The notes beneath the pieces are model-generated. The model was not told the origin of the DNA and did not search any database. It worked only from the letters and a program-made list of their open reading frames with translations. Source: Nymphaea colorata (taxonomy: Eukaryota; Streptophyta; Magnoliopsida; Nymphaeales; Nymphaeaceae). From it: a stretch of DNA of 64,000 nucleotides. The translations under genes were made by a program, and so were the position numbers. The stretch covers positions 9,542,505 through 9,606,504 of the forward strand of contig NC_045140.1 of NCBI RefSeq assembly GCF_008831285.2. The letters are read 5' to 3'. Of this stretch, positions 25,924-48,338 are shown one piece after another. Within the stretch, counting starts at the first letter, position 1. Each line of letters starts with the position of its first letter.

Positions 25924-28282
25924 GCTTGAGAGAGAGCTAGCGAGAGAGAAAGAGATGCCGCTTTAAAGCGTGAGCGAGGAAAATGCGAGGTTGAGTTGTC
26001 TGTTCATGGAATTGACAAAAGGTTGGTTCATGGACCATTTTTGGCACTGAGAGAATCCCATGAAGCGATGTTCAGTCAATTAATACTGTGATTTTGGAGG
26101 CGTACAAAGGGCTGGTACGAGAAAAATCGTGGAAGATGATTGCACCGTTAAAGTTCATTGGTTCCTCCACAGCCACACACACACTCTCTCTCTATCTCTC
26201 AACTATTGAAGCAGATGGACAGCAATGAAACTGTCCCGGTTGCCTCAGTGCAGTGAACCAAACCAAAATCTATAGATGGGTCCTTCACATCTGTTGGCAC
26301 AGTGCACTGCCATTGATCAATCCTGTTGAACTTTACGGAGCCACTGGGGAAGCTGTAAATGCTTTAGCCAGTAATAATAGCCACTGCCATTACCACGCTC
26401 TTGGGAAAAACAAGCTGTAGCTTTGAAGTGTATGATTCGATCATACAAGTCAAGGTCCCCGAACTAGCTAGTAATTAGGTAGGTAGGTCAGGTAACTCCC
26501 ACCAAAAACGCCAGAAGCCTCAGGACGATTTAGAGATAACCAATTTATTCTGAGGGGAAGCCATATTAGCCTGTGAGGATTGGGAAGGTAACTATTTTGA
26601 CATACACAATCAAGATCTCTTGACATGAACTAAGATTAACTTCATAATTGAACAAGCTTGTATTTGCTCAACCGAACCTTGTAGTTTGATTAGGCTGATC
26701 AACACTTGTGCTACAGTACTTCTCTACGTAACTTCGTAACTTGGAAATGTTAGAATTAGATTGTTTGCATAAAGCATGAGGAGACTGCTTTTTTACAATT
26801 TCACTTGATGAATAGTCAAAGTGAAGTGAAGAATTAAAAGATATATAATATAGTCAACGAAGAAATGAACAATTGCATAGAACACTAGAGAACAGTATGT
26901 CGATGAATTTGGCAGAGCTTGCCTCCAGAAATTGCTGCAAGTCCGCAATGGCGATTGGTGCAGCATGTCATGTGAACATGGGGCCGCGAATGCCTTTCGG
27001 AACGCAGAAGTAAAGAAATTCAAATGAATATAATTAGCAGCATTATTAATGGCATGTCTGTTAAGCATTTCTGTTCTTACGGGTTGCTATGGACTGCAGC
27101 CTGCAGGTTTTTGCTGGCTCTGACCCCAAAGTAAGAAATTATGTCTATTTTATAATTAAGTACATCTACGCCACCAGCGTTTGCTGTATATTGTCCTTGA
27201 AGGTGGACCCCTGGTTCTCCTTTGACAGCATTTATCTCTCCTGTTCCTCAAAAAGGCCCAGTTAAAGTATTAAAGATGCAAATTCCTGAACAGTACCAGA
27301 CTGTTCACTTTTATTAAAACGAGTAGGATCATTGAATTGTTTTTCTCTTTTGGTTTGTGACGTTGGAGGGAAAGTGGAGCCATCAATTTTTTGCCCTTTT
27401 ATAATGACCAACTTGTCCCCAGCCTTTTGACCATTTGCCAAAACTAGCCCTTTACAATGCTTCAAGTTATCGGGTTCAAGCTCGTTCTAGCTAGGTCATT
27501 AGTATGGCTTCGACAAGAACCCGGTTTTAACTCTTCATGAAATGTGTATATCGTTCAAGCTTTTCTCCCCTGGATTAAAGTTGGCTTGATGGTATCCTGT
27601 TCTTGGGATGATTTAGCTAACAAACGCATCGCAGTCTGTCTTTTAGGGGGAGACAATGCAGCCAGCTTGGTTTGTCCTTTGGCTTCGTTCGGTTTTCTTT
27701 CATGACTCCACCATAAGCAGTGCCACATAGGTACATGCACAGTTTTACTAAATCGAATAAAGAGAATTGCGCAGCTTTTTCGTAATATATATTCCCAACA
27801 GTGTCTTTTTCTTCATTTTCAAGCTTATGACGTAGCTGGGTAGCAATCGACTTAGCGATACGACGGGGACTGAATCGTTACTTTAGGAAAGTAAATGAGC
27901 TGATCGGGGCCTAGCCTGTCTTTTAATTTGCATCGTTGTGATCGGACCGGACCGAGTCAGTATGTTATAGTGAGTTCTAGCAGAAAGTGATGAGGCCGAT
28001 GCGGACCCCTGGATACTATTAGCCGATACGGGTACGTATCCAATATATAGGGCCTCGGATCGGCCGACACGTGAATTAAGAAAATAATTATTTTTTATTC
28101 TAAATTTGTTTATCTTGATGAGCAATAAAGCTGCCTGACAATGACGGATCATATATGGAATGTACACATTTATAACGTTGCTCTTACTCATGGCCATCAT
28201 CGTACAAGCCAAAGTTATAACTATGCGACCTAAAGGTAATTCAAAGAGGTAGGCCCTCTAAGAGTAGCTGCTATAGGCTTTC

Positions 28283-29463: not shown

Positions 29464-29707
29464 GATAAGCTCCAAAAACAGCTTCTTCCTACATAGAATT
29501 AATGGCCAATCAATTTGCCACGCTTCAACATAGAAAGATATAGAGCGGAAGGGAGAGAAATCTACTTTTCCTTTACGCCCCATTTGATTGTCGGGGGAAA
29601 CACTATTCATCGAGGTAAAGTTCACTTCGTTGTACAGTTTTTCCGCTTGCCATCAAACACTGAAAATTTTACCTTGAAAAATGTATGAGAAGGGGGATTT
29701 TAATGCG

Positions 29708-29742
29708 AAAAAAAGTCGGACCTCCAGAGGTCCGACTTTTTT
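29708..29742. repeat. near-perfect 34-bp hairpin inside the Harbinger left arm
   Basis: A(6-7)GTCGGACCTC, two bases CA, then GAGGTCCGACT(6): a 16-bp perfect stem with a 2-base spacer at 29709-29742. On either strand it resembles a strong stem followed by a T run, as in an intrinsic terminator, but in a plant nuclear transposon its role is unknown. Confidence 0.9.
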
Positions 29743-30102
29743 CCACGGATTTTTCTACGAGTTGTTAAGCCTCTCCTATTGCTCTTTCTCGCTGCTCCTC
29801 TCCCTCTGACAAAGTCGTCTCCGTAGTCGAAGCCCTTACCTGTGTCGAAGCCCTCTCCTCTGTCTCGAAGACCTCTCCCTCTGTCGGTGCTCCTCTCCCT
29901 CTGTCGAGATCATCCCCTCTATCGAAGCCCTCAGAATCTTGCTACTTCCTCTGATTCGAAGCCCTCTCCTTCTCGCTATCTTTTTCCTCTTCCTCCTTCG
30001 TGCTGTGTGTGGTTGGAAGAAGCAGTGTTTGTCCCATTCTGGTGAGTCTCTCTCCCTCTTTCTCTTTATCTCTCTCTTTGTGTCTGTCTGAAACACACAA
30101 AC

Positions 30103-30716
30103 TGTAAAGTCAAGTCATCACCTACTCTAAAAGTTGAGAAGACTCAAGAGGCTATGAGCCTCTCCTTTTAAGGTCGGTGGATGTAATGATTAAAAAGAAA
30201 ATAAATTAAGAAAAAAGAAAAAGTTAGAATGTGGTGGATTCTTCCATCACCGACTAATACTCCCTATAAATAAGGATGTTGTGCACAGTGTGTGAGCATT
30301 GAGTGAGTTGGGTTGAGTCTCAAATCATTGAGCTAGAGTTTGTGTGCTCACTTTGTGAGCTGGTTTGTGAGAGTTTCAAGTGTGTGCTCAAGTGCAAGAG
30401 CGTTGGGTGGTTGGATGTTAGCTCACTATGTGAGGTTGTTGAGGTGAGCTCTTGTACCTCACTTTTATATGTTTTATTTTTGACAAACAATAGAAGTGTA
30501 TTGTTTGAAGTATATTTGGTGCATACTTTATGTTGTTGCTTCGTTAAGTTCATTTTGTGAACATTGTTGGTGTTGTTATTAAGTTCCTATTAAGTATACT
30601 TTGTCAAGTTTATTATTGAGAATTATTTTGGACGTCGAGACTCTACCGGTTTTTCTCCACATAAATTCGGGTTTGGATCTAAGTTATAACTAGGGCCCAC
30701 ATTTTTTCCTCCAACA
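30103..30716 (+). repeat. Copia 5' LTR
   Basis: 614 bp, starts TG and ends CA. A TATA box (TATAAATA, 30265-30272) is followed by repeated GTGTGTGAGC- and GTGCTCA-like words in the probable R/U5 part. It is about 15 bp longer than its partner because of small indels near both ends. Confidence 0.92.
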
Positions 30717-30718
30717 AG

Positions 30719-30730
30719 TGGTATCAGAGC
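30719..30730 (+). promoter_or_regulatory. primer-binding site (initiator Met-tRNA)
   Basis: TGGTATCAGAGC, the standard plant Copia primer site complementary to the 3' end of initiator methionine tRNA, two bases after the LTR end. Confidence 0.95.
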
Positions 30731-30785
30731 GAGGTTCGGTTTAAGGGCTAGTTTTAGTAGTGAGATTAATTGGGCTAATTATAAT

Positions 30786-31658
30786 ATGGTGGCATTAACA
30801 GTTGCATTAAATAATACTGAAAAGCTTAACAATAGCAATTATGGCTATTGGAAATCTTGCATGTGGTCATATTTTATAGGACATAAATTATTGGATATAG
30901 TATTGGGATCAGACACAGATATTTTTGTCGATGAGGAAGCTAAGAAAAAATGGATGATCAAAGCAAGGAAAACTCTATTTGCAATTAAGGTATCTATTGA
31001 GAATGATTTATTAGAGCATATACGTGATGCTAAGAATCCTAAAGAAGCATGGGATGCTTTCGCAACGCTATTTTCTCGAGCTAATGACGCCTGCCTCCAA
31101 CTGTTAGAAAATGAGTTACCTACATTAACTCAGGGGAACATGTCGATAGCAGAATATTTTATAAAGGTTAAAAATATTTATTGGGAGATTTCATAAAATG
31201 ACCTTGAGTCTAAGATTAGTGAGGCCCGTATGCGGAGAATTCTTATTCGTGGACTTCGTCCCGAATTTAGTAGCTTTATAATTGGTATTCAAGGGTGGTC
31301 AGTTCAGTCGAATTTGTTGGAGTTAGAGAATCTTTTGATTAATCAAGAAACATTAGCGAAGCAAATAGCTGAACTTTCACTCAAAATAAATAATGAGGAA
31401 GCTCTATTTAGTAAGGGTCATAGATCATGTTGGCCAGCTAAGCCAATCATTAGGTCTCCAAGTAGGAACATTAATGAAAAGAAAGAAAAAAACATAGAAA
31501 AGAAAACAAGAGAACCTATACAGCAGTGGAGACCAAAGAAGAAGTGTTTTAGATGTGGAAGATTGGATCATTTTGCTCATGATTGCATAGTCAAAATAGA
31601 TGAAGGAAATGCAGTCATAACAAGTAAGAAACATGGGGAAGTTAATGAAACTGTATAG
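30786..31658 (+). pseudogene. Copia gag with zinc knuckle, interrupted
   Basis: Gag starts at 30786 with the LNNSNYGYWKSCMWSYF-type Copia gag opening, runs to a stop at 31194-31196, and continues in another frame at 31230-31658. The second part ends in a CCHC zinc knuckle, CFRCGRLDHFAHDC (about 31547-31588), which binds RNA during packaging. One stop and frameshift break the frame. Confidence 0.85.
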
Positions 31659-31741
31659 AAAAGTTTGTTTCTGTACTCAATTGAGATTAAAGAGGATATT
31701 AAGAAAGATGCAATTCTGCTCATATAAAATATGTAAAAGAA

Positions 31742-34700
31742 AAAAAAGAGAAGATCAATTATCAAACTGATTGGATAATTAATTTTGGATGTTCTAATCA
31801 TATGACTGGTGATGAGAGTAAGTTCTTAAGTATGAAAGAATATGACGAAATTCGAGTTGTTATTACTGCTAACAACACAAAGCTCCCAGTGGCACATATT
31901 GGAGAAGCAGAAGTTGTAGCCAACCTTGGTAAAGACTGGATTTTACAAAACGTTTATCATGTTCAAGGAATGACAAAGAACTTATTGTCTGCGCCACAAC
32001 TTGCAGCCTTAGGTCACTATATATTATTTGGCCCAAATGATGTGAAAGTTTATAAAAATGCTGATGTTCAAGAAACTCCAATATTTGAAGGAAGAAAAGT
32101 TGAGTCAATATATGTCTTGTCAGCAGAAACAACACATATTGACAAAACAACGAAGCATGACACTTCAAATATCTGGCATGAGAGACTCACTCATGTTGGA
32201 TACAACAAACTCATAAAGGGCAGTTGATTGGCCTGCCAAAGCTTGAAGTACGAACAGACAAAGTATGCCCATGATGTCAATATGGAAAGGCGCACAGGAG
32301 GTCATTTAAAGAATTGAAGTATAAAGCTAAAGCACCATTCGAGCTAGTGCATTAAGATGTATTTGGAAAAGTACTAGACCCATCAGTTTGAGGTAAGTGG
32401 TATTTTATAACATTTATTAATGATTTTTCAATATATACTTGGGTCTATTTCATGAGAGAAAAGTTTGAAGCAATTGAAAAGTTTAAGAAGTTTTACCAAA
32501 TGGTGAGAAAATAACTTAGGTATAGAATTCAGTGTCTGTGCCCCGATAATGGTGGCGAATATACATCTGACATGTTTATAGTATACATGAAGCAACATGG
32601 TATTCGATGACAATTTACATGTGCCTATACACCATAGTAAAATGGAGTGGCAGAACGAAAGAATCGCCACATAGCAGAAACATGTCGAAGCATGATGCAT
32701 GCAAAGAACATACGACCAAGATTTTAGGCCGAGTGTGTCAGCATCGCTCTACACGTAATTAATCAACCACCATTGCCAATATTTAACTTTAAATCTCCAT
32801 ATGAAATATTTCATAAAAGGTTTTCATCTGAGTTATTTTAGAGTATTTGGTTGTGTATGTTATGTCTTTCTATCTGAACAATAGAGGACTAAGTTCGACA
32901 AGAAGACACAAAGGTGTGTCTTTGTTGGATATGATTCATATAGAAATGGATGGAGATGTGGTAATCCTAGTATATGATAAGTTCATGTTTCTCGCGATGT
33001 CATCTTTGATGAAGCATCATCCTGGTGGTCAGAAGAGAAGAAAGCGCTTCCAGATTCTCCAGTTTTTAGAGAAATGTTCAAAACAAAATACAATTTGAGA
33101 TGAATCAAGGAGAGCCTAGCTGAAAGACATAGAAGCAAGACGATCAGATAAACAAGTTCAATGCTTGAACATAACCCAAGATGAGCAAAACAAGCAGATC
33201 CGTGGAGAATAGGAGTTAGTCTTGTTCAACAGCAAAGCATAGAAGAAGAAAGGTCATGAAAACTTGAAGAGCCACAAGGAGAATTTATAATATTAAGAAT
33301 AACAACAAGAGTACCAAAACCGAATCCCAAGTATATAAATGCAGATTTGCCATCATGGAGGAGATCGAGCAAGCTTCTTTTGAAGAAGCAAAAGATGTTA
33401 AAAAATGGTAAGCTGTAATGAAAGATGAAATGAAGGTATTGGAGCATAACAAGACCTGGGAACTCGTACCAAAGCCTACAAGAGTGAAGCCCTTGTAAGT
33501 GGGTTTACAAAATTAAAAGAAAGATAGATGGCTTAGTTGATAGATATAAGGTTCGACTAGTCGCGAGAGAATTTTTATAGTAGTATAATATTGACTTTGA
33601 AGAAATTTTAGTATTGTTGCAAATATCACATTTGTACGTATTCTGATAGTCATTGCTGCAAGGAAATCTTGGAAGCTATGGCAAATGGATGTGAAAAATG
33701 CTTTCTTATATGGAGATTTTGATCATGAAATCTATATAGAGCAGCCTGAAGGATTCAAATTTCCAAACAAGCTAGACTATGTTTGCAAGATAAGAAAAGC
33801 ATTCCATGTACTAAAGCAAGCGCCCAGAGCATGGTACAGGAAAATAGCTGAATTTTTGGTGTTTAGTGGATTTCAAATCACCTCAACAGACTCGAGTCTG
33901 TTCGTCAAGGCAAGAGGTATGAAGATTACTATTTTGTTAATTTATGTTGATGATTTAATTATTACTAGAGATGACAAGGAAGAAATTAATCTCATTCGTG
34001 AACATCTCACAGTGAGATTCGAAATGAAAGAGCTGGGGGAGTTACGACACTTCGTTGGATTGAAAATCGTTTATGAATCTAAAGGATTATTTTTAAGTCA
34101 AAAGAAGTATACTCACGACTTACTACATAAGTATGGTATGCTCGGTTGCAAACCTATCTCCACACCAATTGAGATAAATGCAAAGCTTAGAATTGATGAA
34201 GGAGATAAGATAGAAGATGTCACTATGTACCGACAACTAGTTGGAAGCCTAATCTACTTAACATTGCCAAGACAAGACATTGCCTATGCGTTGGTGTTGT
34301 GAGCAGGTTTATGCAAACTCCAAGAAAGCCACATTTAGAAGTAGTAAAAAAAATATTAAGGTATATCAAAGAAACTAAGGAACTCTTAACTTTGGTATAC
34401 TTTATGAAAAAGGGTCAACTTGTCAAGTTGTTGGTCATTGTGACGTGGATTATGTTGGACACTTATCAACATGAAGATCGACTACTGGATATACATTCTG
34501 TCTTGGAAGTGACGCAATTTCATGGTGCAATAAAAGACAGCTGACAGTTTCACTGTCTACAGCAGAAGCAGAGTGAGCAGCATCTCAAGCAGCACAATAA
34601 TGTGTGTGGTTGATGCGACTGCTGAAAAACATTAAACAGGATGTGGATTATGCAGTGAGACTTTACTGCGATAATCAAAGTGCAATTAGACTTGCACAAA

Positions 34701-34870
34701 ATCAAGTATTCCATGCTCGAACAAAACATATAGAGGTGGAACATCATTTATCAGAGAGAATGTACTCAAAGGAGAGATTCGGTTGCTGCCAATTGCTTCA
34801 AAAGATCAAGTCGCTGACATCTTTACCAAATGCTTGTCAGTACAAACATTTGCCTAGCTTAGAAGAATGT
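31742..34870 (+). pseudogene. Copia pol: protease, integrase, reverse transcriptase, RNase H
   Basis: Protease is at about 31769-31812, where the catalytic triad reads NFG in WIINFGCSNHMTG instead of DSG, so the active-site Asp is lost. Integrase follows with the H-x-C zinc region (HERLTHVGYNKL, 32176 on), PDNGGEY and NGVAERKNRH, with several stops between 32220 and 32900. Reverse transcriptase is the best preserved part (33685-34302), with MDVKNAFLYGD and the IYVDDLIIT active site near 33940. RNase H ends with STAEAE, LYCDNQSAIRLA and ARTKHIEVEHH. Numerous stops and frameshifts mean it cannot make an active polyprotein. Confidence 0.9.
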
Positions 34871-34895
34871 TAGGAGTTATGAGTAGAGAGTCAAT

Positions 34896-34908
34896 AATGA
34901 GGGGGAGA
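34896..34908 (+). promoter_or_regulatory. polypurine tract
   Basis: ATGAGGGGGAGA lies immediately upstream of the 3' LTR, the position where plus-strand DNA synthesis is primed. Confidence 0.85.
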
Positions 34909-35507
34909 TGTAAAGTCATCACCGACTCTTGGAAGAGTAGAGAAGTCTCAAGAGGCTATGAACATCTCCTTTTAAGGTCGGTGGATGTAATGTTTAAAAG
35001 AAAATAAATTAAGAAAAAAGAAAAAATTAGAATATGGTGGATTCTTCCACCACCGACTAATACTCCCTATAAATAGAGATGTTGGGCACAGTGTGTGAGC
35101 ATTCAGTGAGTTGGGTTGAGTCTCAAATCTTTGAGCTAGAGTTTGTGTGCTCACTTTGTGAGCTGGTGTGTGACAGTTTCAAGTGTGTGCTCAAGTGCAA
35201 GAGCGTTGGGTGCTTGGATGTTAGCTCACTACGTGAGCTTGTTGAGGTGAGTTCTTGTACCTCACTTTTATATGTTTCATTTTTTACAAACAATAGAAGT
35301 GTATTGTTTGAAGTATAGTTGGTGCATATTTTACGTTGTTGCTTTGCTAAGTTCATTTTGTGAACTTTGTTGGTGTTGCTATTAAGTATACTTTGTCAAG
35401 TTTATTATTGAGAATTATTTTGGACATCGAGACTCTACCGGTTTTTCTCCGTATAAATTCGGGTTTGGATCTATGTTATAACTAGGGCCCACATTTTTTC
35501 TCTAACA
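34909..35507 (+). repeat. Copia 3' LTR
   Basis: 599 bp, TG...CA, with TATAAATA at 35068-35075. It is collinear with the 5' LTR with scattered substitutions and a missing TTAAGTTCCTA-like segment near the right end. Confidence 0.92.
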
Positions 35508-38138
35508 CAGACTGTAGGAGAAGTGTCACTGCGAGGAGGCAAAGCGGAGGAAGATCAGTATAGCAAACCTCTGTCAAAGCCCTTGCTTGCACGCTTTCTT
35601 CTCCAAAATCTTATAAGGTTGGTGCATATGATTTGTCTTTGTTGGAAAGTCTTCGTAGATTGGTGTGTATGATTTGATGTTGAGAGGGTGCCTTCTTTGA
35701 TGTGCACATGAACTGTTCGCTGAAATTCTTAAGTAACTTACATTCGTATTTGTAGTTCATCTGGTCCACATTTAGGACAGATTCGTTAAAATCTGTGTCC
35801 ATAGAAAAGAACACCAGTTTCATACTTCTTTTCTTGTTTATGCTTAGTCAGTAAGAAATTCTTTGAGATTAGACATGTATAGGAAGCTCTGGTGATTCTC
35901 TAATTGCCAACGAGTGATAGATTAGGGAATGGATTTATGGAGGTTTCAAGTTGTATGAAAATGAGAGGGGGAGACAGAAGCCAAAAGAAGACCATCAACC
36001 TCTTACGGGACCCTCTCTTTGGTTCCCTTTAACTGCTTATTTACTGATGTTAAATGTTGTCTAAGATAAAAGTCCGCACATGTTAGTTGTTGTTGTAAGT
36101 CAATCATGTATTGCAGGTTCCAACGATAATCAACACAAGCTGTGGAATGCTAACCTCAATGCAGGTTCCAGCTTGAGTGAACGCAACTTCCTTTCATTGA
36201 ATATCGCCTAAACTCACAAAGGTACAAAACAATCTTATCTACATGTGATGAGGATTAAAGCACAAGTAATTGCCTAAACTCACAAAATTTGACTTGATTA
36301 AAGAAAGGACCTTCGTAGAGCCTGGTATATATATATATATGAGTTAGAATTCATTTTATGGGTCGTGCATGTCTTTAGTCCCTTTTCTTATGTTTGGAAG
36401 TTAAGATGAGTCCACTGAATTGCTGTCATATTTTTTTATTAGTATATCTTTAATCTATTTGTTATTTTTGTGCTACTATAAAGGTTTAGAACAGAGAGGT
36501 TGTAGCTTCACTTTCAATTACTTTGGTTCATGTTATTGCATGCTTTGTTCAATTCACTTTTGATTGAAGCTATTCCCTGTTTAGTATAGGTTTAAGGTTT
36601 ACCTATAGGTTAGAGCAAACCTTTAAATCAAGTTTTTCACAATTTTACTGATGTTAAATGTTGCCTAAGATAAAAGTCCACACATGTTAGTTGTTGTTGT
36701 AGGTTAGTCATGTATTGCAGGTTTCGGCTATAATCTACACAAGCTGTGGAATGCTGACCTCAATGCAGGTTCCAGCTTGAGTGAACGCAGCTTCGTTTCA
36801 TTGAATATCGCCTAAACTCACAAAAGTACAAAACAATCTTCTCTACATGAGATGAGGATTAAAGCACAAGTAACTGCCTAAACTCACAAAATTTGACTTG
36901 ATTAAAGAAAGGACCTTCGTAGAGCCTGGTATATATATATATGGGTCAGAATTCATTTTATGGGTTGTGCACGTCTTTAGTCCCTTTTCTTATGTTTGGA
37001 AGTTAAGATGAGTCCACTGAATTGCTGTCATATTTTTTTTATTAGTATATCTTTAATCGATTTGTTATTTTTATTAGAAGTAGAGGACTCATCGTGAATA
37101 TCATCAACTGACATAGGATATTTTGTGCAACAAATGTGCAAAAGGCAAAAGGGAATTGGCGAGTCCAATGTAACTCAAATATTTGACCCAACTCATGAGT
37201 CTTTTAATTTGTTCATCAGCATGAAGAAAAGGCATAGACAAAATAGAAAAAAGTCCTTGTTACTATTCAATAAATTAAACAATGTATAAGCTTTTATGGC
37301 ACTATAGCAGCCGCATAAATGAAATTTGAATGAGCTGAACATAACCAAAGGCGTAACCTGGGTTTACTTGCAAAAGGATAAGCTTCAAAAGCTGATGTGT
37401 GGCATTTAGTCGCCTTATACATTTCCATGAAAGAAAATATTCTCTTCCATGCTTGAAAACCCATATATATCATTGAAAATTTTTAGTTTGCAAAGTAAAC
37501 AACAACTCTGATATACATAAACATGTGGAGCAGATGTTGCTGTAAAGATATAGGTTTATTTATGGCATCGTTTAAAAATATCATCCAGGCTATATTTTAT
37601 AAATGCTTGATACATGAGTCCATAAGTCAGGTTCAGGCAAGTTATCTCAATTAACTGGGCACAATCTATGTGTATATGTCTATGCAGCAGTTTAAGAACT
37701 GATCCAAGTTGACAAATCAAGAACTTAATGAAGAAAGAACATCTTAACATAAAAAAAAAAAAGTAAGTGTTTTTCTAAATGGAACATGTTAACATAACCT
37801 CCTCTAATATTGTAACTATTGTAAATCAAGAGAAAAACTGCTTAGTGTAGTTCGATAACTAGACTTACTCTACTTTTGTTTTCCAACAGTCTTTGTTTCA
37901 TGCTTTCTTAATTTTATGTTTTGTTGGTATATAGATAATGGTTAGATTATAGCGCTGGAATTGGCAATGTTACAAAAGTAAATTTTATTGAAATTTCATA
38001 ATCATATCCATTTGTATTAGGAGTATCATTGGCATACTTAGTGAATTTGTAAATAATTACTATAGTTAATACTGTTATATGTCAATTTTCTTTATGCATA
38101 TGTTTTCATATTGGAAAATATAGTTGTGAAGAAATATT
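35508..38138. other. Harbinger interior without recognised coding sequence
   Basis: This is the part of the Harbinger element between the Copia insertion and the first ORF. Its main feature is a roughly 430-bp direct duplication (36041-36469 and 36645-37072). Short (TA)n runs lie inside both copies. No protein family is recognisable. Confidence 0.5.
36041..37072. repeat. direct duplication of about 430 bp
   Basis: The segment starting TTACTGATGTTAAATGTTG at 36041 starts again at 36645 and both copies end at GTTATTTTT (36469 and 37072). Identity is high by eye, with small indels in the (TA)n and T runs. A 175-bp unrelated spacer separates the copies. Confidence 0.85.
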
Positions 38139-38144
38139 GTGGAA

Positions 38145-39150
38145 CTCATTACCATGGAAGAAAGTGCTCCATTAAAGGAGAATCTTACGCCGAGTGAAGC
38201 ACAAGTAGACTACTTAGTCCAACTTCTTTTGGAGGAATCACGCATTCCTGGTATGAAATCTGATGGAGGTTGGAAGTCGAAAGTTTATACAGCAATTGAA
38301 AAAAACATGATGGAAAATTTTGGTCCCAAATTCACTAAAGATAAAATAAAAAATAAATTGAAGTACTTGAAACCCAACCTGACAGTTATGAAGGAAATTT
38401 TGAATACAAGCGGGTTTGGGTATGACCCCATAAACAAATGCATTGATGTCGACCCCCAAGTATGGAGTGACTAGATTGAGGTATGCTATGGAGATCATAA
38501 TGGTATGTTATATCTAACATGTTTTTATTTTTGTAATATTTAAACACATAAAAATTTTTCAGAAATATCCGAATAGAAAAAAGTACAAAGGTCCAAAGTT
38601 ATGGAGGTACTATGAGGAATTCGCCGAGGTATCTGGCGATTCCCATGTAGCTGACAAAGAAGCAGACACATGCAACAACATGTTACATGAGGATACAGAA
38701 CCACTCCCAACTACACCTGCATTTCAATCGACTCCATTTTACATACAACCAGAAAGTTCACAATTATTCACACCCAATGCTCTATGAAGATACTCCTCCA
38801 CTACAATCGCCAATATCTCCAACTCTTACAACTCAAGATCCTCCATTGACAACTAATAGGACTACAAGTAGGTCTTGAAGGAATAGGTTAACCAATGACG
38901 AACAGTATTATAATTTGTAGCACAGTATTGTTGATGATGTCAAGACCATGACACATGCATGCAGAGGGGTTCAATTTGTCACATGTTGCGAACTACTGCA
39001 AGAGTTGGTTGAGGCTAGACAAATAGATATTGATACATAAGTGAAGAGTATGGACATGTTAGCAGAAGGCACCAACCCCATGATATTTGTCAACCTTCCG
39101 CCTTCACAATGGGTGTCTTGATTGAGGCATAAACTTGCTGATTCGTAGGT
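38145..39150 (+). pseudogene. Harbinger ORF1: Myb/SANT-like DNA-binding protein
   Basis: Exon 1 begins at ATG 38145 (an in-frame ATG at 38139? is upstream in the same frame, so the start is uncertain) and encodes a Myb/SANT-like domain with W-x-SKVYTAIEKNM, IKNKLKYLK and GFGYDPINK. An intron with GT at 38481 and AG at 38561-38562 joins DPQVW-xx-IE to KYPNRKKYKGPKLWRYYEEF, the usual continuation of this domain (HPxxKxYR...FYEDL-like). A TAG at 38472-38474 breaks exon 1 just before the splice. Beyond about 38780 the frame is shifted, and pieces of the C-terminal helix region continue to about 39150. In PIF/Harbinger elements this partner brings the transposase to the nucleus and the DNA ends. 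Confidence 0.75.
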
Positions 39151-39408
39151 AAGAGTTGATTGTTAATTATATATTTCATGGTTCATTATTGCATAATTTA
39201 TGTGTTTAAACATTTCTTATAACATTCTTCTGTGTTATTTTAATCTTGATGTTGTTTGCAATGGTTGTTGTTAAGATACGTCATTTTAGTTAATTTAGTC
39301 ACACATGGTTCATTAGATCTTTGAAGATATTTGTACACTGTCATGATGTTTGGTTTTTCAATAAGTTTTGTTATATTTTCATGCAGTTTAGTTGAAATGG
39401 TTTATATT

Positions 39409-40057
39409 TAGAGCTGCACAACGAGTCGAGCCAACTCGGGCTCGACTCGAACTCGCTTGAAAAAACTCGACTCGAGCTCGACTCATTTATAAACGAGTCG
39501 AGTTCGAGCTTAAAGTTAAACTCGAGTATGTTAACGAGTCGAGTTCGAGTTAATCAAGCTTGACTCGATTAAACTCGACTCGACTCGATTTTAATTTTTT
39601 TAAGTTTTCTTCATTATTTCGTTTTGTCTCGTTTTTTGTGTTTTTTTCCCTCCCATTTTTCTTTCCTCCTCTTTTTGTTTTCCCTCCCATATCTTTTCTC
39701 TTCTCCCGCCGCACACCTTTTTCTTCCTCCGCATTTAATGCCAATGCCATTATTTCATTCCCTTTTTCTCTTTTCTCTCGCACGCGCTTTCTCCCTTCTC
39801 CCACCGCATTTAATGCATTGCCATTAACACTGCCCTGCCCTACGTGTGGCAGGTGTTGAAGGAGCCGTGTGTGGAGAAAAGAATGAATGAGTCGAGCCGA
39901 GTCGAGCTCGAGCTTGAAAGCAATTTATCGAGTCGAGTTCGAGTTAAAGTCGTCCAGCTCGACACGAGCTCGAGTCGAGCTCGAGCTGACTAAATATAAG
40001 TCGAGCCGAGCTCGAGCTGGCTGAACTCGAGCTCGACTCGGCTCGTGTGCAGCCCTA
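39409..40057. mobile_element. hAT MITE with perfect 8-bp target duplication
   Basis: TTTATATT flanks it exactly (39401-39408 and 40058-40065). The ends TAGAGCTGCACAACGAGTCG and, inverted, TAGGGCTGCACACGAGCCG are terminal inverted repeats with the hAT TAGRG start. The arms consist of CGAGTCGAG and GCTCGAGCTCG words rich in CpG. The core (about 39595-39720) is pyrimidine-rich. No coding capacity; it sits between the two Harbinger ORFs. A decayed relative is at 47844-48338. Confidence 0.87.
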
Positions 40058-40153
40058 TTTATATTGACATGTTCGATGACGACGAATAACACGAGTGTTA
40101 CTTGACTCAGCTAGTTTTTGTCTTCATCTTTTTTTGGTTAAGATGATTACCTC

Positions 40154-41245
40154 AATCTATTAGGATTGCTCATCCATTTAGAGATGTTGGAACATCTTCT
40201 GTTCAACTCATGTTTCGAGGTCATCCTAGAAATTGTATGAACTTACTCCGTAAAGATCGGTGTACATATATGACATTATGTAATACTCTAAGAACTAGGA
40301 ATTTACTAGAGTCGTGCCACTCAGGATACCTTTCAACATCTTGGACAAACAATAAATAAATATGTCAACCTTATCCAACAAGCAATATGTTTACTAGGTA
40401 AGGATTACATCCAGTGGCCCAACGATGACATGCCAACTAATATTTGGCGATCTAAACGATTGTTTCCATACTTTCAGGTAATAGTGTTAACCAAAAACTC
40501 AACATGACACATAAAATATGTCTAACTTGCATATCTGCATATAGGATTGTTTAGGAGCAATTGATGATACCCATGTACCTACATGGGTCCCAACATCAGA
40601 TCAAGCAAGATTTCGCAATAGAAAATGAGTCATCTCTCAAAATATCATGGCTGTAGTTGGATTTGACACTCCATTCCACTATGTTTTGGCAAGATGGGAA
40701 GGAAGTGCAACAGACTCAAAAGTACTATGCAATGCACTTGATCATCTGACTGACTCATTTGTTGTGCCAGAAGGTACGTACTTCCACCAACCAATGCATA
40801 CCTTTTTACAAACATTTAACAATGTTTAAAGAATTTGTGTTCACTTGTAGGCAAATATTATCTTGTTGATGGGGGTTATCCAAACATTGTCAGTTTGCTA
40901 ACACCTTATCGAGGGCATTGTTATCATATGTCTGAATTTAACACACCGAGGGCACGCACACGCACACCTAGAAGTACTGAAAAATTATTCAACCATAGGC
41001 ATTCATCACTACGAAATGCAGTAGAAAGAACTTTTGGCATGTTGAAAAGTCGTTTTCCAATATTGAAAATGCAAGTGCAGTATCCATTCAAAAAACAAGT
41101 TCAAATTGTTCTTGCTACATGTATATTGCACAACTTCATAATTGAACACAATCCAAATGTCAAGCAATTTGTTAATGAAGATGCACCTTCAAATGATAAT
41201 TTTGTCGTAAGTGAACCGGGAATTACAAGTCAAACACATCAGTGA
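40154..41245 (+). pseudogene. Harbinger ORF2: DDE transposase (HARBI1-like)
   Basis: Three exons can be read. Exon 1 is up to 40477 (shifted frames upstream of 40370). Exon 2 is 40545-40773 and exon 3 is 40851-41245, with GT..AG introns 40478-40544 and 40774-40850. Spliced, the protein contains DCLGAIDDTHVP (first catalytic Asp), YYLVDGGYPN (second Asp) and HSSLRNAVERTFGMLKSRF (catalytic Glu), then CILHNFI, in the order and spacing of the HARBI1/DDE_Tnp_4 family. All three acidic residues are present. A TGA at 40627-40629 interrupts exon 2 just before VISQNIMAVVGFD (usual GVPSQN-like), and exon 1 has further breaks, so it is a recent-looking pseudogene. Confidence 0.85.
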
Positions 41246-42533
41246 GAAAGCAACAATTCTATGAGAACAACTGTAACAAATCAAATGTTTACAAATTATG
41301 AATTTAATAGTAAGTTTATTTATCGATTGACTATTGTTGCATATGGTTGTTTGACATTTGTTTTGTTTTGAATAGGACAACAAAGATGAAGCCTCGCCAG
41401 AAGTACTATGTCATGTTCGAAGGGAGGTTGTGAGGCATATATGATAGTTGAGAGTATTGCCAACCATTAGTATATCGATACAAGGGTGCACTCTTTAAAT
41501 CATTCGATACCTTCAAAGTTGCAGAATGTCACATGAATGTGTATCTCAATAAGAAGTATGGTGTGCAAGTACATAGAGCTACAGAGATTGACAATGTCAT
41601 CGCAAATGAAGAGCAAGAATATATGAAGTTTGTTGAACATAAGTGCAACCAGAAAGCAATGGTTACTTGTTTTGTGATTACGTGTTTTCTTTGTTGGATC
41701 TGTACTCATTAAACTTATATATTGGATAGGAATACACATTTTGGTTACAGGTTGTATAACCTTTATACCGGTTTAAGTGTGCTATGGCTCTAAATTGTTA
41801 CATTTGTTGGATTGTTTTGTCAAATGCAAATGGTTGCTCATGTTCTTTTTTTAATCTATATGATCATTGGTTGATGTATACAGATTAAAATGTGTTTACT
41901 GTTAAAAGTTGTTCAATCATCTTCCTTGAAATTTTGTTCAATCATCTTGCAGATACTTGTAGTTCTACTGATACACATAGGTGCGCTTACAGTCCTTGAA
42001 TACCTCTATTTGTTGGTATTTCACCAAGAAAAGCTACTTTTGGTTGTATCCATGACTGCTTAGAATCTCCTTCTGATGCATGTTCCACTCCAATGCACTT
42101 ACCTGTTTTGGCATTAACTGTTTCATCATTTTCATTTTATGTAATTGACTCGGCTAAGTATATTCAGTGGCATCCTTCCACAGAAATAAACTTTTGTTGT
42201 AATGATGCTTATGTAACACATGCACCTTTGCCATGCAGTATATGTTTCCTTGTTAGTTTAGTTCTTGTTGGTATCAGCTATGAATATTTTTATGATCAGA
42301 AGATCTTGTCAAAACAAGTTAAACATCTAGCTAGTATAAAGCATAAACCTTCATCTACTTTACAAAAATAACCTTGTTAGAATAGTCAACTTTGTAGATG
42401 CTCTTTTTCTGCAAACTTTCTCATTGGGTTGATTTTGATTATGTGATTCAAGTTTTGGTGATATGCTCATATTCTCTGTTTAGAGGTATATTCATCGTAA
42501 ACTTGAATAAATTTCAGCCACATCCAAAATGGA
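41246..42533. other. Harbinger right arm, unassigned
   Basis: Downstream of the transposase there is AT-rich sequence. A 92-codon frame at 42093-42371 extends upstream in frame to about 42016 (VGISPRKATFGCIHDCLES...), suggesting old coding sequence, but I do not recognise it. Confidence 0.35.
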
Positions 42534-42669
42534 GTGTGTGGCTCGGCCGAAGAACCTAATCATGCATCAGATATGTCAATGGATGCCAGTGTTGAAGAAA
42601 CAAGAGATTCTGTGGATGGATGGACTGTCATTACTTCGAAGAGGAACCGGGGTAGGAAGTCCACATAGT
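42520..42669 (+). pseudogene. possible captured terminal exon of a host gene
   Basis: After a TTTCAG acceptor-like site ending near 42519, an open frame reads to a TAG at 42667-42669. It contains HIQNGVCGSAEEPNHASD, then an acidic stretch and a basic end DGWTVITSKRNRGRKST. A polar acidic linker followed by a basic tail at the natural stop looks like the last exon of a real nuclear gene rather than Harbinger coding sequence. I cannot name the source. Its location near the right end of the transposon suggests capture. Confidence 0.35.
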
Positions 42670-43549
42670 CATTTATACCCAATGGCTTTTCTTTCAGCTT
42701 TGATAATTTCAGTCACCACACATAACTTGAATCTGGTTCTCAGTAATTCAATTTGAGTAATTCAATTTGGTTGTTGTGTTAAGATTTGGCCATTTGTTAA
42801 ACGATGCACCTTTGCTGGATTTGTGTTGCCTACTGCGTTGCCCAGCATTACTCAGATTATGATGGATTTATTTGTTGGCTTACATTGATATAAAAGGCCC
42901 CTATCAAACGGAGTCTTTACTGATTCTGCATTTTGTTGATTTGAGGAATTCCTATTTGCATATATGAGGAAGTTTGGTCCTGCATTGGGTTCCAGTTCCT
43001 ATAGAACTGAGGACTGAGAATGGGACCAACGGCACTGCCACTCGTTTCATGTGTCCAGGGAGGCTTCTTATCTGTGGCGAACCAACCACACAATCTTCAT
43101 CTCCAAAAATGGTCGAAACAGCCATTTCTAGTCGAGAAAGTGAAAGCAATTACCTTGCACAGTGGGATGTCTAGCATGGAACGGTTCTTGCGGCAATGGA
43201 AAAATAGAAAATGAAATGAAATGGGTCCATCTTGCAGCGGTTCTTATGCTATTAATAGGTATCATTATGCTAACCATGTTATGTGGATGCCCCGTTAATA
43301 ATGCGAGTTTATCCACGTGAAAATGGAGGAGAAAAAAAAACCACATCTTCCAACGGTCACCTAAAAAGTCTCTCCTTCATTTTATCCTGTGCACCAAACA
43401 CAGTTACTTTTTCCATGCAAAAATCTACCCTGCCATCAAACAGTGCCTCTTTCTAGAAGAAGGAAAATTTTCCTCCTGTTTTTTTTTTCAGAATTCTTTT
43501 TCATGATAAATTTACCACGTTAAATTCTTCCCTGCAATCAAACGGGGCC
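42670..43549. other. Harbinger right terminal region
   Basis: Non-coding; ends with the terminal inverted repeat at 43535-43549. A CCATCAAACA block at about 43432 also occurs in the left arm near 29652 in the same orientation. Confidence 0.5.
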
Positions 43550-43552
43550 TTA

Positions 43553-43931
43553 TGGACCGTTTGATGCATTGGAAATATGGAGTAGGAAAAAAGTTTTGAA
43601 AAACTTATTTCAGGAATTGAAGAAATTGAAACAAAATCCAAATTTCTACAACCCCTTTGTGTTTGCTGGACTTGGGTTTATGTTCCAGAAAATAAATATC
43701 TCAGTTTGATAGGAATGAATGATGAAAAAGTTTGAGAGCCCAACGATTACTTTTTTCATCCTAAAATTTTTTTTTCATCCCTTCAGGTGGGACAAAATTT
43801 TCGAAAAGAAATTTCTGCAAACCAACCCAACAGTTATTTTTTTAATCCTAAGTTTGATGAGCAAAAAAAATAAATAAATTTGAATTTTATTTCTAGTGCT
43901 ACAGAAAACATTCTATACATCAACCAAGCCT
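43553..43931. mobile_element. Tourist/Harbinger-type MITE abutting the large element
   Basis: Starts TGGACCGTTTGATGCATTG directly after the TTA of the large element, ends (inverted) AGGCTTGGTTGATGTATAG, and is followed by TTA at 43932-43934. Terminal inverted repeats agree at roughly 12 of 19 positions. It would thus share its left TTA with the right TTA of the large Harbinger. The weak repeats make the call moderate. Confidence 0.45.
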
Positions 43932-43934
43932 TTA

Positions 43935-45700
43935 ACATTTGTTATGCACTCAGGAAACTGTTTACACAAAAGAACATAATATATATATATATGCATTCAT
44001 CCATGACTACTCTAGTAAAATAGTCATGGTGACAGCGGATCTCAGCAGTTCGAGAACACCCCGTCCAACGGTTGAGATCAGCTTAGTGAAAAAAAAACAA
44101 AAGGAAAGTCAGGCGACGGCTGCCGGACTTTGTCCCTGGCCCTCTTCCTCCCCATCTCCCCTTCCCACCCGTGTGCATCATCTGACAAATGCTAAGATGG
44201 GGACCAGTCACCCTCCCACCGGCTAACCGTGAGACGACTGCAGATGAGATGGTCTGACCGTTGAATGTGAGCTGGCCGCTGCAGAGGACCATATTACCGA
44301 CCAGTGCTCGACACTTGACTGGTATGCCTCTTCTCCCTCTATCTTACAGAAAAATGTGGAAATTGGATATTGATCTATCAAAATTTATGAGGGTTTCAAA
44401 ATCAATAGTTTTAGGATGGGGTGAAATGGAGAAATCATAAAATATATAGCTTTAGGATATTCAATTGAACTAAAATAAAGAAAGTTCATAGTTCTTTTTC
44501 AAACGTAGCTACAAATTTAGATGTTGAACCTTCTCTGAGTTCTTGCCTTTTATCGGAATTTAGAAATGAGCCAGGTTTGAACATGTTAATAGCACCATTC
44601 GTTGTGGTCATGTGCACAACTTTGTTCAATGCACACATAACACCAATCACTCGCCTGTAGTTCACAAAATTTACATGATGTGCAATCCAGCATTTTGTAC
44701 TTTCTTTTTCTCCAAAAGATTGGTCTCGTAGTGAAATCAATTTTCTGATGATTTTGGACATGTGCATAGGTGCAATGCCAGCATCTTCTACCTGCAATTG
44801 GTTCAATGTAAATGTGGACAAGCAGCACTAGTAAGAATTGTCAAAAATGGACGAATTCAAGGAGACTCTTTTATGTATGTCAAAATTATTTATATATTTT
44901 GTTTTACAAAGTCATGTTTTTAACTTTACCCTTTATCATGGTCCATGTTATGTAAATTTTCTTGTGCTCATGTTGGGGGGTGCAATGAACTTTTGTGGTT
45001 GTTATCAATGGTGTTCTGAACAAGACGGATCCTACGTATTAAACGAAGAGAATGAAAGCCTTTTGTTGAATAAATTGAATTGTTGCAAAAGTCTGATTCA
45101 TGATCATGTACATTATGATAAAGTAAAACATACATGGTGCAATTCTCATGAACTTATTGAAGTCATAAGGCACCTAAATGTTACTAATGTTATACGTGTA
45201 AATCGTTAGTTGTCTTCATATGGTCACTAACGTCACAAACAATGTATTTAACATTATGTTCATAGCTAATGTGAATATCAATGTCGTCTTCATATGATCA
45301 CTAATCTGTATATATATGAAACGTGTTGTTCATAGTTCCCTTGAGTTCATATGTTAAGGTTGGAATGATGAAAAATGTAAAAGAACTAGATGTTAATTTT
45401 CCAATGCAAATAACTGCAAAACCTCTTCCTATGACCCTGAGCAAAACATAAGAGCTCGAGAAAACTAAAACAATTACAGGACATTCTTCTTCCTCATTTT
45501 CTTCTTCTTCTTCACCATCATCTTCGTCTTCATTCCATTGCTTCCTATAAAGAGGATATTTGCCACTGCCTGCATCAGTCACCTATCCACAAAAAACCAA
45601 AAAAAATAACATGTACGGATAGTAACATTGAGAACAAATAATATACTAAAAGAAAGAGAAATTATAAATTAACTTAAGTTGTCGGCGTCCTTCAACTTTG
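43935..45700. other. non-coding stretch
   Basis: No recognised gene. From about 44034 to 44330 there is a GC-richer segment with partly inverted GGTTGAGATCAG and CTGACCGTTGAA-like words, possibly an old MITE or captured fragment. Open frames at 44486-44821 (minus, 111 codons) and 44838-45209 (plus, 123 codons) match nothing I know. Confidence 0.35.
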
Positions 45701-46432
45701 TGACAGTTTCTCTTGTCCTGGTTTGGTCCTCCACATGAATGACAGTATTTATTTCACAATATTATTATCATGACCTATTTCTGCATAGTCATCACATGAG
45801 CAAATAAGGTATAGTTTATAGAAGACAATGGTATAACACGTCTTTACTCTTCTTTCATTCATAAATGACGTGCAAGAATCATGTCCATGTTTGTTACAAT
45901 TCGCACACATCTTTTGTAATTTGCTATGCATGATACTTAAAATGTAATGCTTGCAGTCTCCTTAACATGAACTGGACCACGACCTATGAAATTGATCGAT
46001 TCATTAGTCCCACTAGTGTTGCCGATGTGCATGGTTTGGGAACCTGCAAGACAACTTTGTTCAGTCATTGTCATATTTTTATTTTTCACGTCAAGGATAC
46101 ATTCTAATAACCTTTCAAACACGTCCACTACCTCCTCATAGCATGTAGCGTTTGACAATGCTTCATTCACACACTTGTTAGCCATTAACTAAAGCAAACT
46201 TTTCTTTACTAACAAGGATGCCCTTGCATTTAGCAACAAATAAGAAGATGAATTTTTTTTCCAAACAGCTTTCTTGGCTTGTCTTGTCCACCTTTTAAGT
46301 AAATAATTTGAAGGTAGTTGCTTTGTATGTTCTGCATTCAATATTGTAAGCATGTGACAACAAACAGTACCCAATGTTTTCCATCGTTTGCATTGACAAC
46401 TTGACAAGCACTGACTATCAAGTTCATATAAA

Positions 46433-46487
<55 letters not shown>

Positions 46488-47340
46488 TTTCTTTGCACTT
46501 CCATCTTCTTCAAATTGCTTCATCTGATACCCTTTCACCCTATTTGTGGGTTTATTCACGGTCTAAGAGCAACTCATGCATTCCAAAAACTCATGTTTCA
46601 AGTACTTTTTATATAACTCAAGAGTAAATATATTTTGCAAGTAGAATTCCAACTCTGAATGTGTAATGGTATGTTCAACTTCATTATTCATCTTGAAGTT
46701 TAATGTTTTTTCTTTGTATCGTTGATTGCTAATTCCCCCTTCATATTTGACAACAAAGTCACTCAAAATGTATTTGACTTGACCCAATTTTTTTAAATAA
46801 TTATTCATACTTTCACTTTGTTGTGTCATACAATACTTGCCATGAAAGTTTCGTTGAAATATAACTAAGCCCACGTTGTTCTTTCTTTCCATAAATTTGT
46901 TGCCTATTCAATAGTTTGTAATTGTGGATATTTCAAGTTTAGTTCCTGCCATCTAGCTTTTAACTCCTTAATTGTCTCGAACTTGAAAAACCATACATGC
47001 CACAAATGTTTAAATTGATGAACATGTTTATATAACCCAGCATATGTTGGTATTTTCATATGTGTGCCAATTATGGTACCTGTGCAGTGTGTTAGGAAAG
47101 GCTTTGTACACTGTTCCCCTCATTGCAAGATCATAATAAGTCAAAAAATGACACCTAAGATTGTCAACCCATACATTGAACCCATTGTTCAAATAGCCAT
47201 TTAACTGATTCCTTCTTTTCATTAATCAAACAATGTAGAAAAATGTACATTGAGCATGATGATTTATCCTAACAAATAGTGCCAGTGGCAAGTGATATTT
47301 ATTTTTCTTATATGTTGTATCAAATAATATCACAGAAAAT
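45701..47340 (-). pseudogene. FAR1/MULE-type transposase relic
   Basis: Read on the minus strand from about 47331: the MULE transposase block FDTTYKKNKYHLPLALFV (usual FDATYRTNKYxxPFxPFV), then DLAMRGTVYKAFPNTLHR (usual DxAMxxAIxxVFPxxxHR), then QQSESMNNYLKK (usual QRSESMNxFFKR) at 46563-46892. The SWIM zinc finger CQCKRWKTLGTVCCHML with the NYLLKRWTRQAK tail is at 46189-46407. A zinc-knuckle-like CANCNKHGHDSC is at about 45870-45910. Frameshifts separate all blocks, and a (TA)n tract at 46437-46485 lies between the QRSESMN part and the SWIM finger. No Mutator terminal repeats were found. It is related to the mobile relatives of FAR1/FHY3 rather than a host FRS gene; the decay argues against function. 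Confidence 0.8.
46437..46485. repeat. (TA)n microsatellite within the transposase relic
   Basis: About 24 uninterrupted TA units that split the transposase pseudogene. Confidence 0.95.
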
Positions 47341-47843
47341 TTTGAAAAGAGGAAAAGAATGAAATAAAATGACTGAAAAACCTATTATAAATGCTTCTAT
47401 GTGTGGGAAGGGAAGGAAATGAAAGGAACTATCAGAAACCATGTTTATTTAGCTATATAATGGAAAAAAGGGGAAAAATTTGGGGTTTGTTTATAATAAT
47501 ACCCAAAATTTAATTAGACATCTCTTACATCTTGTAAGGCAAGTTCTCCACTACCTTTTTCATAAAATTGACAAAAATTTAACTTTTTTAATTACAAAAG
47601 ACAAAAAAGTAAGAAGTTGAAAGATATACGCTTTTGACACAAGCACAATTTTATTTCGGGCCATATTTCGAAAATCTTATAATATTTTATCAATAACTAA
47701 ATTTAAAATATTAAAAATTTTAATTGCAATATTCTTGATTGTGGCCAACTGTTAACACAAAGAAATAATACAAAATAATAATAACAAGTCCATAGAAAAA
47801 AAGAAACCTAGTGAGGGACTTCTGCTATATGTTGCTAATTTAG
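47341..47843. other. AT-rich stretch
   Basis: Very AT-rich, with no gene. It is probably the upstream part of the FAR1/MULE relic, but no motif remains readable. Confidence 0.35.
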
Positions 47844-48338
47844 TAATGGTGTTCAACAAGTCAAGTCAACTAGGGCTTCACTTGAACTCACTCATTAAAC
47901 TCAATTCAAGCTAGACTTGTTTAATAAATGAGTCAAATTCTAGTTAAAAAATAAATTTGTTAAGTAAATGAGACGAGTTCGAACTAGCCAACATGACTCT
48001 TGTAAGCAGAGTAAGCTCAAGAAATGAATATGTGAAAGACAGTTCAGAACATCATAATAACAAATAAACAACTCCATCTGTTTTCCCATTGCTACAAGTT
48101 CTAGGTCTCAAGTTCAAACTCGGCTGCTACTATTCATGTTATTGACCTTTTTTAATAATGGGTCAGCTTAACTCGGGCCAAATCTCGGCTCGAGTTTGGT
48201 TGAGCCAAATTCGATCCTTCCTAAGCTGAAGCTGAGCCGAGCTCAAGCCAGTACACTTGAGCTTGGCTCAATTTCAAACCAAGTTTAAACTCAACTTCTG
48301 AGACACAAGACAAGTTCAAGCTGGCTACAACCAGCCTA
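47844..48338. repeat. CpG-depleted relative of the 39.4-kb hAT MITE
   Basis: Aligns from its left end (GTGTTCAACAAGTCAAG against GCTGCACAACGAGTCGAG) through a GAGTCAAATTCTAGTT-like segment to AAGCTGGCTACAACCAGCC at the right. Most CG in the intact copy read TG or CA here, the pattern left by methylated-cytosine decay. No matching octamers flank it. Confidence 0.5.

Follow-up and report, generated by a model that had tools for sequence, protein, structure and literature searches.

Whether a PIF/Harbinger transposon can carry more than two genes is the question raised by a 64,000-nucleotide stretch of Nymphaea colorata DNA (the window; G000:C3:9542505-9606504), which holds a very large element of this superfamily between positions 29573 and 43552. 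Virtually all characterised coding PIF/Harbinger elements have two genes, as stated in an excerpt of PMC2836001, which also describes both proteins as needed for Ping/Pong transposition, and a passage of PMC12595863 similarly gives Harbinger two required proteins and TWA targets. A sequence-only reading of the locus had described a two-ORF (open reading frame) Harbinger set in one orientation; ORF1 and the transposase are indeed both on the + strand, but we found three conserved reading frames rather than two. Taken as a whole, the evidence makes us fairly confident that the window element belongs to a family in which many members have three + strand protein genes, encoding a Myb/SANT-like ORF1, a DDE transposase and a 108-amino-acid ORF3.

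Coding content of the element

The genome searched was that of the window itself (408 Mb in 783 contigs). The transposase family search, with copies chosen by similarity to transposase exon 3, scored the best 40 of 154 candidates, window copy included, and 10-kb stretches were retrieved for 20 of the 39 non-window copies, followed by 8.5-kb stretches for three more. The coding features of the window copy are as follows.

38154..38471, + strand: ORF1 first exon, Myb/SANT-like domain (Pfam Myb_DNA-bind_3, 1.3e-13 for 38130-38471)
38518..39150, + strand: decayed second exon region of ORF1; the second frame of ORF1, open in L041, is colinear with it
40156..40477, + strand: transposase first exon, decayed, with frame breaks and a ~71-bp deletion relative to L021
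40545..40775, + strand: transposase second exon (..GAIDDTHV..), stop codon at 40626-40628
40850..41309, + strand: transposase third exon (..VDGGYPN.. ..RNAVERTFG..), DDE_Tnp_4, stop codon at 41243-41245
41310..41375, + strand: predicted intron (GTAAGT..AG) from splice motifs, 66 nt in the window
41386..41709, + strand: ORF3, after the predicted intron, a pseudogene here (two in-frame TGA codons), 108 amino acids where intact in relatives
41401..41526, + strand: ribonuclease (RNase) H1 N-terminal domain (Pfam Cauli_VI) in ORF3

The Myb/SANT-like open frame of ORF1 extends over 38130-38474, and the stretch 38518-38784 of its second exon region gave no Pfam match when scanned alone. The third transposase exon matched DDE_Tnp_4 at 6.5e-16 (40820-41242), and with exons 2 and 3 joined, and X at the stop codon, the whole DDE_Tnp_4 model was matched at 7.7e-24. 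A DDE_Tnp_4 transposase and a Myb/SANT-like ORF1, both on the + strand, together with the TTA duplication and terminal repeats described below, bear out the earlier placement of the element in the PIF/Harbinger superfamily. With its transposase and ORF3 both broken, the window copy is, to judge from its sequence, an old and inactivated DNA transposon.

ORF3 and its domain

Read with X at its stop codons, the window ORF3 matched positions 1-42 of the 44 in Cauli_VI at 9.2e-11 with 42.3 bits (cut-off 21), and the piece left without read-through scored 20.8 bits (4.7e-4), just below this cut-off. The domain was matched in all 13 ORF3 copies selected for an open frame, the best at 3.6e-17, and neither these copies nor the window ORF3 gave a match to the RNase H catalytic domain. 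In a profile comparison, ORF3 matched 1qhk, the structure of the yeast RNase H1 N-terminal domain, at 8.7e-9 and, weakly, the human structure 3bsu at 0.011. By these matches, the first half of ORF3 is the ribonuclease H1 N-terminal (hybrid-binding) domain. Hybrid binding by human RNase H1 requires W43 and K59/K60, according to a passage of PMC10639055; among the 13 open copies the residue aligned to W43 was W in 13/13 and that aligned to K59 was R in 13/13.

The ORF3 region was found in 19 of the 20 first-retrieved relatives, and in 31 of the 40 scored copies of the transposase, counting that of the window, Cauli_VI lay 0-400 bp downstream on the same strand. Across the whole genome, 90 matches to Cauli_VI were obtained among 149 scored candidates, all above the curated cut-off of 21 bits, and 24 of the 90 lay in an uninterrupted frame of 121 codons, which is the span from an upstream stop to the common stop in several copies. 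No relatives outside this genome were found in scans of viral contigs or of bacterial and archaeal genome contigs; the ORF3 scan of the viral contigs gave a single match, an RNase H1 N-terminal-like domain in a 150-kb viral contig (L045:3001-3135), which is 44% identical to that of ORF3.

Selection on ORF3

The ratio of non-synonymous to synonymous change (dN/dS) was calculated as a pooled pairwise value, with intervals by codon bootstrap, over 22 sequences (the window and 21 copies; L038 was left out, as was L025, the neighbour and close twin of L023). Codons 1-48 of ORF3 gave a dN/dS of 0.219 (0.140-0.333), with eight stops in 1,051 codon cells, whereas the other two frames over ORF3 gave 1.017 and 1.115, with 63 and 68 stops. 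A run on 20 sequences returned 0.225 for 49 codons, and transposase exon 3 in its own frame gave 0.339 (0.227-0.505). These data show that the ORF3 reading frame was under purifying selection during the spread of the family. Synonymous divergence (pS) was higher in ORF3, at 0.374, than in exon 3, at 0.195, and the selection of copies by exon 3 similarity may explain this difference.

Several observations weigh against a third gene of this kind. L038 has lost the ORF3 region, nine of the 40 scored transposase copies are without a domain match within 400 bp, and 59 of the 90 genome matches to Cauli_VI are not beside any of these 40 copies. The uninterrupted frame of exactly 108 codons is retained in only 10 of the 22 sequences, with 103 codons in three more, and the tail of ORF3 (codons 49-107) is only weakly constrained, at a dN/dS of 0.680 (0.450-1.016). 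A pooled pairwise dN/dS takes no account of the tree, and similarity of the transposase exon had governed the choice of copies. In addition, the residue aligned to human K60 is S in 12 of the 13 copies and L in one, so that hybrid binding may be weaker or different in ORF3.

Expression and proposed role of ORF3

The predicted intron between the transposase and ORF3 was 60-70 nt long in the 18 sequences, out of 21, that showed both splice motifs. Upon its removal (GTAAGT..AG), 12 of these 18 sequences kept an open frame as far as ..YQL(N/K)R(Q/E)RR, followed by a stop, and in the other six, the window among them, the transposase frame stopped earlier. The predicted transposase stop, TGA, overlaps the first ATG of ORF3, the TGA being present in 22/22 and the ATG in 20/22 sequences. 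An overlap of stop and start recalls coupled translation, although this is only a resemblance. The ATGA arrangement suggests coupled termination and restart, an alternative splice being equally possible.

Alternatively, ORF3 could be a C-terminal domain of the transposase rather than a gene of its own, with intron retention, a frameshift or an alternative splice joining the two. ORF3 directly follows the transposase on the same strand, its frame extends without a stop 18-71 codons upstream of the KYYV block, and in L022, L023 and L025 it is open across the whole predicted intron. We consider a fused domain unlikely, given that the TGA is invariant, that the intron-removed transposase frames all end in a stop, at or before the ..RR ending given above, and that the intron varies in length without the frame being kept.

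For ORF3 as a protein of its own, we propose the following. Transposition would follow the Harbinger cut-and-paste route, in which ORF1 would hold the ends and the transposase would cut. ORF3 would be an accessory binder of RNA:DNA hybrids or of double-stranded RNA, acting for instance at R-loops or on the element's own transcripts. Its translation would start at the ATG overlapping the stop of the spliced transposase message, or would depend on an alternative splice form. From its domain, ORF3 probably does bind RNA:DNA hybrids or double-stranded RNA, whether strongly or weakly. In the complete proposal, ORF3 would be a stand-alone hybrid binder made as a second frame of the transposase message via the TGA/ATG overlap; it would block host RNase H1 or silencing triggered by double-stranded RNA, would thereby shield R-loops or element RNA or else target them, and would in this way aid spread. 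We put this forward only tentatively and doubt that it will hold in full.

Origin of ORF3

A different account would make ORF3 a passenger, namely a fragment of a host RNase H1 or caulimovirus-type gene that was captured once and has been copied along without function. Gene capture by DNA transposons is known, and a fungal Helitron having a gene with Cauli_VI appears in an excerpt of PMC4289320. Candidate sources exist in this genome in the form of two strong Cauli_VI matches on contig C2 (66.7 and 66.5 bits), which may be host genes. Set against a passenger are the constraint on the frame (dN/dS of 0.219 as opposed to 1.02 and 1.12) and the retention of all 108 codons in ten sequences, including the near-identical copies L041 and L042, and we regard it as distinctly improbable. 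Our preferred reading remains that ORF3 is a third gene of the family.

Ends of the element

The boundaries of the element are given by the following features.

29573..29575, no strand: left TTA target-site duplication, from the sequence
29576..29590, + strand: left terminal inverted repeat, 15 bp, 13/15 identical to the right end, with the same left end in L021 and L044
43428..43447, - strand: subterminal second copy of the right terminus, such as many relatives also have
43535..43549, - strand: right terminal inverted repeat, 13/15 matching the left terminus, reached by the matches of relatives
43550..43552, no strand: right TTA target-site duplication, from the sequence

The 15-bp termini with two mismatches and the flanking TTA noted by the sequence-only reading were both recovered. 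Apart from itself, the left terminus was matched best, across the whole window, by the right terminus, and the left terminus was the joint-best match to the right one, tied with one unrelated site at 24255. Ten TTA/TAA-flanked 15-bp inverted pairs with ≤2 mismatches and 1-20 kb apart are present in the window, including the 29576/43549 pair, so the terminal pair alone is not rare and the case for the element rests on the motif, the enclosed content and other copies. With ten such pairs, chance termini were considered as an explanation and were rejected in view of the ends of the relatives.

Comparison with other copies in the same genome, which the sequence-only reading had proposed as a check, confirmed both ends. 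The same ends occur in L021, L029, L037 and L043 (TTA/TTA), in L022 and L026 (TAA/TAA) and in a deleted copy, L044, which has TAA on the left and TAG on the right. The match to the window extends to 43544-43552 in 16 of the 20 first-retrieved relatives, one of which, L026, has a second match that continues to 43565, and short derivatives with matching flanks were found in L030 (3,321 bp) and L039 (1,951 bp). Where flanks were read, the exceptions besides L044 (TAA/TAG) were L023 with TTT/TTA, L042 with CAA/CAA and L041 with no matching pair; in the remaining relatives the left end, the right end or both could not be found with flanks that match. The family thus has the 3-bp TWA duplication of PIF/Harbinger elements (a TTA pair in the window and pairs of TTA or TAA in relatives) and short GC-rich terminal inverted repeats (13/15 in the window, GGCCCCGTTTGATTG-type ends in relatives). 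That the two ends derive from different elements, the true right end being the terminus-like GGCCCCTATCAAACGGAGTC followed by TTTA at 42896-42915, ~630 bp inside the right end and also present in L044, is very improbable, given the 16 relatives whose matches reach the outer end, both outer ends in L044 with the inner site internal, and 2/15 mismatches in the 29576/43549 pair compared with >4 for the site at 42915 against the left terminus; this inner site is perhaps an older or alternative right end.

Two further observations were made near the ends. A hairpin with a perfect 10-bp stem, AAAAAA-GTCGGACCTC-CA-GAGGTCCGAC-TTTTTT, lies at 29709-29742, ~130 bp inside the left terminus, and nearly all of it is covered by the L044 match (to 29739). 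One base past the right-end TTA, at 43554-43572, is a Harbinger-like terminus, GGACCGTTTGATGCATTGG, oriented so that it would be the left end of another unit to its right; a search for the partner end from 43650 to 48100 gave nothing above the score cut-off.

Guest elements and order of insertion

Two other transposons have inserted within the element.

30098..30102, no strand: CAAAC, left target duplication of the Copia element, from the sequence
30103..30716, + strand: Copia 5' long terminal repeat (LTR), from the LTR pair, TG..CA
30717..34908, + strand: Copia internal region with interrupted frames, containing gag, zinc knuckle, Pol_BBD and RVT_2 (Pfam)
34909..35507, + strand: Copia 3' LTR, from the LTR pair
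35508..35512, no strand: CAGAC, right target duplication of the Copia element, at a site where L021 is uninterrupted
39401..39408, no strand: TTTATATT, left duplication of a hAT-type miniature inverted-repeat transposable element (MITE), from the sequence
39409..40057, + strand: hAT-type MITE, 649 bp, termini TAGAGCTGCAC / TAGGGCTGCAC, absent from L021
40058..40065, no strand: TTTATATT, right duplication of the MITE, from the sequence

Each guest has a target duplication of its own, as had been claimed: 5 bp with one change for Copia (CAAAC/CAGAC) and a perfect 8 bp for the MITE. L021, ~88% identical over much of its length, passes uninterrupted through both guest sites. Because of the nesting and of this guest-free paralogue, the order of events can be given as Harbinger first, followed by Copia and the MITE, in agreement with the sequence-only reading.

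The MITE resembles hAT-type MITEs, which are non-coding and are characterized by 8-bp duplications and TAGRG-type termini, in its duplication and its TAGRGCTGCAC termini; nothing unusual was seen in it, and the single internal frame that was compared with Pfam gave no match. The Copia guest is equally typical of Ty1/copia LTR retrotransposons, having TG..CA LTRs, a 5-bp duplication with one change, gag and RVT_2. Its two LTRs show 34 differences over 596 aligned sites, a Kimura two-parameter distance of 0.059. With the rice rate of 1.3e-8 changes per site per year, as quoted in a passage of PMC9921582, this distance places the insertion at roughly 2.3 million years, by a rate that may not be that of this plant.

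Length and family members

The element spans 13,974 bp, and subtraction of the guests, with one duplication each counted, leaves 7,907 bp, as in the earlier estimate of about 7.9 kb. The description of this length as larger than usual holds within its own family, in which the window element is the longest measured: the six relatives in which both ends were found with a matching pair of TTA or TAA measure 4,894 (L021), 5,238 (L029), 5,251 (L037), 5,377 (L026), 5,590 (L043) and 7,092 bp (L022), and most of the complete copies are ~5 kb long. L021 has a deletion at its right end, and L022 may contain inserts. L029 and L037 are both on C7 at a distance of ~40 kb and may represent one locus that was duplicated.

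Part of the surplus length is accounted for by one feature of the 5' region.

36040..37072, + strand: tandem duplication in the Harbinger 5' region, two copies, offset ~604 bp, 94% identical

Another part is a longer 3' stretch at ~41.8-43.2 kb. As this stretch is missing in L021 and other relatives, it was considered as a wholly foreign insert and rejected, much of it being carried by L044 and a few other low-copy places. L044 (~2.6 kb) matches three stretches of the window in the same order, 29577-29739, 37804-38249 and 42067-43546, the third of which is briefly interrupted. It thus shares with the window the 3' stretch from 42.07 kb as well as 37.80-38.25 kb of the 5' side, so that these are not lone insertions. 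By this pattern of matches, L044 is a deleted relative of the window element's own sub-lineage, which suggests that the 41.8-43.2 kb stretch be treated as part of that sub-lineage. Within the 3' region, a 90-bp piece at 41793-41882 shows 77% similarity to the region preceding ORF1 in L022, L023 and L025 and may reflect rearrangement inside the family, and an exon-like open stretch at 42507-42665, ending in ..DGWTVITSKRNRGRKST-stop behind a good-looking 3' splice site, gave no Pfam match and could be a captured host exon.

L041 and L042 lie on different chromosomes and share 1.4-1.7-kb blocks that are 99.6-99.8% alike; both retain ORF3, and L042 is an internal deletion copy. Their likeness suggests recent copying of three-gene elements, despite the lack of a target duplication in L041 and the unusual one in L042. 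L025 contains two closely similar Harbinger copies (L025:1-1942 and L025:4236-8060), 6.1 kb apart on C12, the first of which is also L023, and this pair is probably a tandem duplication.

Other features of the window

To judge by its contents, the window is nuclear DNA of plant type. Outside the element, a plastid psaA/psaB fragment at 8837-9319 (Pfam 1.1e-34) is probably a plastid insertion, and a long open frame on the - strand at 24325-25962 contains an F-box and leucine-rich repeats. Rfam and tRNA scans gave no matches.

Comparison with known systems and implications

The family resembles Ping/Pong and other plant PIF/Harbinger elements in its short terminal repeats (defined as 15 bp for Ping/Pong in a passage of PMC9921582), TTA/TAA duplications, Myb-like ORF1 and DDE transposase, and differs from them by a third frame that has been under selection and encodes an RNase H1 N-terminal domain. 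ORF3 shares this domain by sequence with yeast (1qhk) and human (3bsu) RNase H1, including the invariant equivalent of W43, but has no match to the RNase H catalytic domain and has R and S in place of K59 and K60. The Cauli_VI domain family is also common to ORF3 and the caulimovirus transactivator/viroplasmin from which Pfam takes the name, whereas ORF3 is a 108-amino-acid protein with one Pfam domain inside a DNA transposon. No Harbinger element with such a third gene was found in the open-access library searched; Repbase, UniProt and subscription journals, which lay outside its scope, may record one. Two-gene Harbinger elements are already known, and the gene set with ORF3 as its third member may be new.

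If our reading is correct, one plant lineage added a nucleic-acid-binding accessory to the two-protein Harbinger reaction, perhaps for anti-silencing or for targeting linked to R-loops. Should the association also occur in other plants, it would help to explain the origin of stand-alone RNase H1 N-terminal domains in plant genomes.

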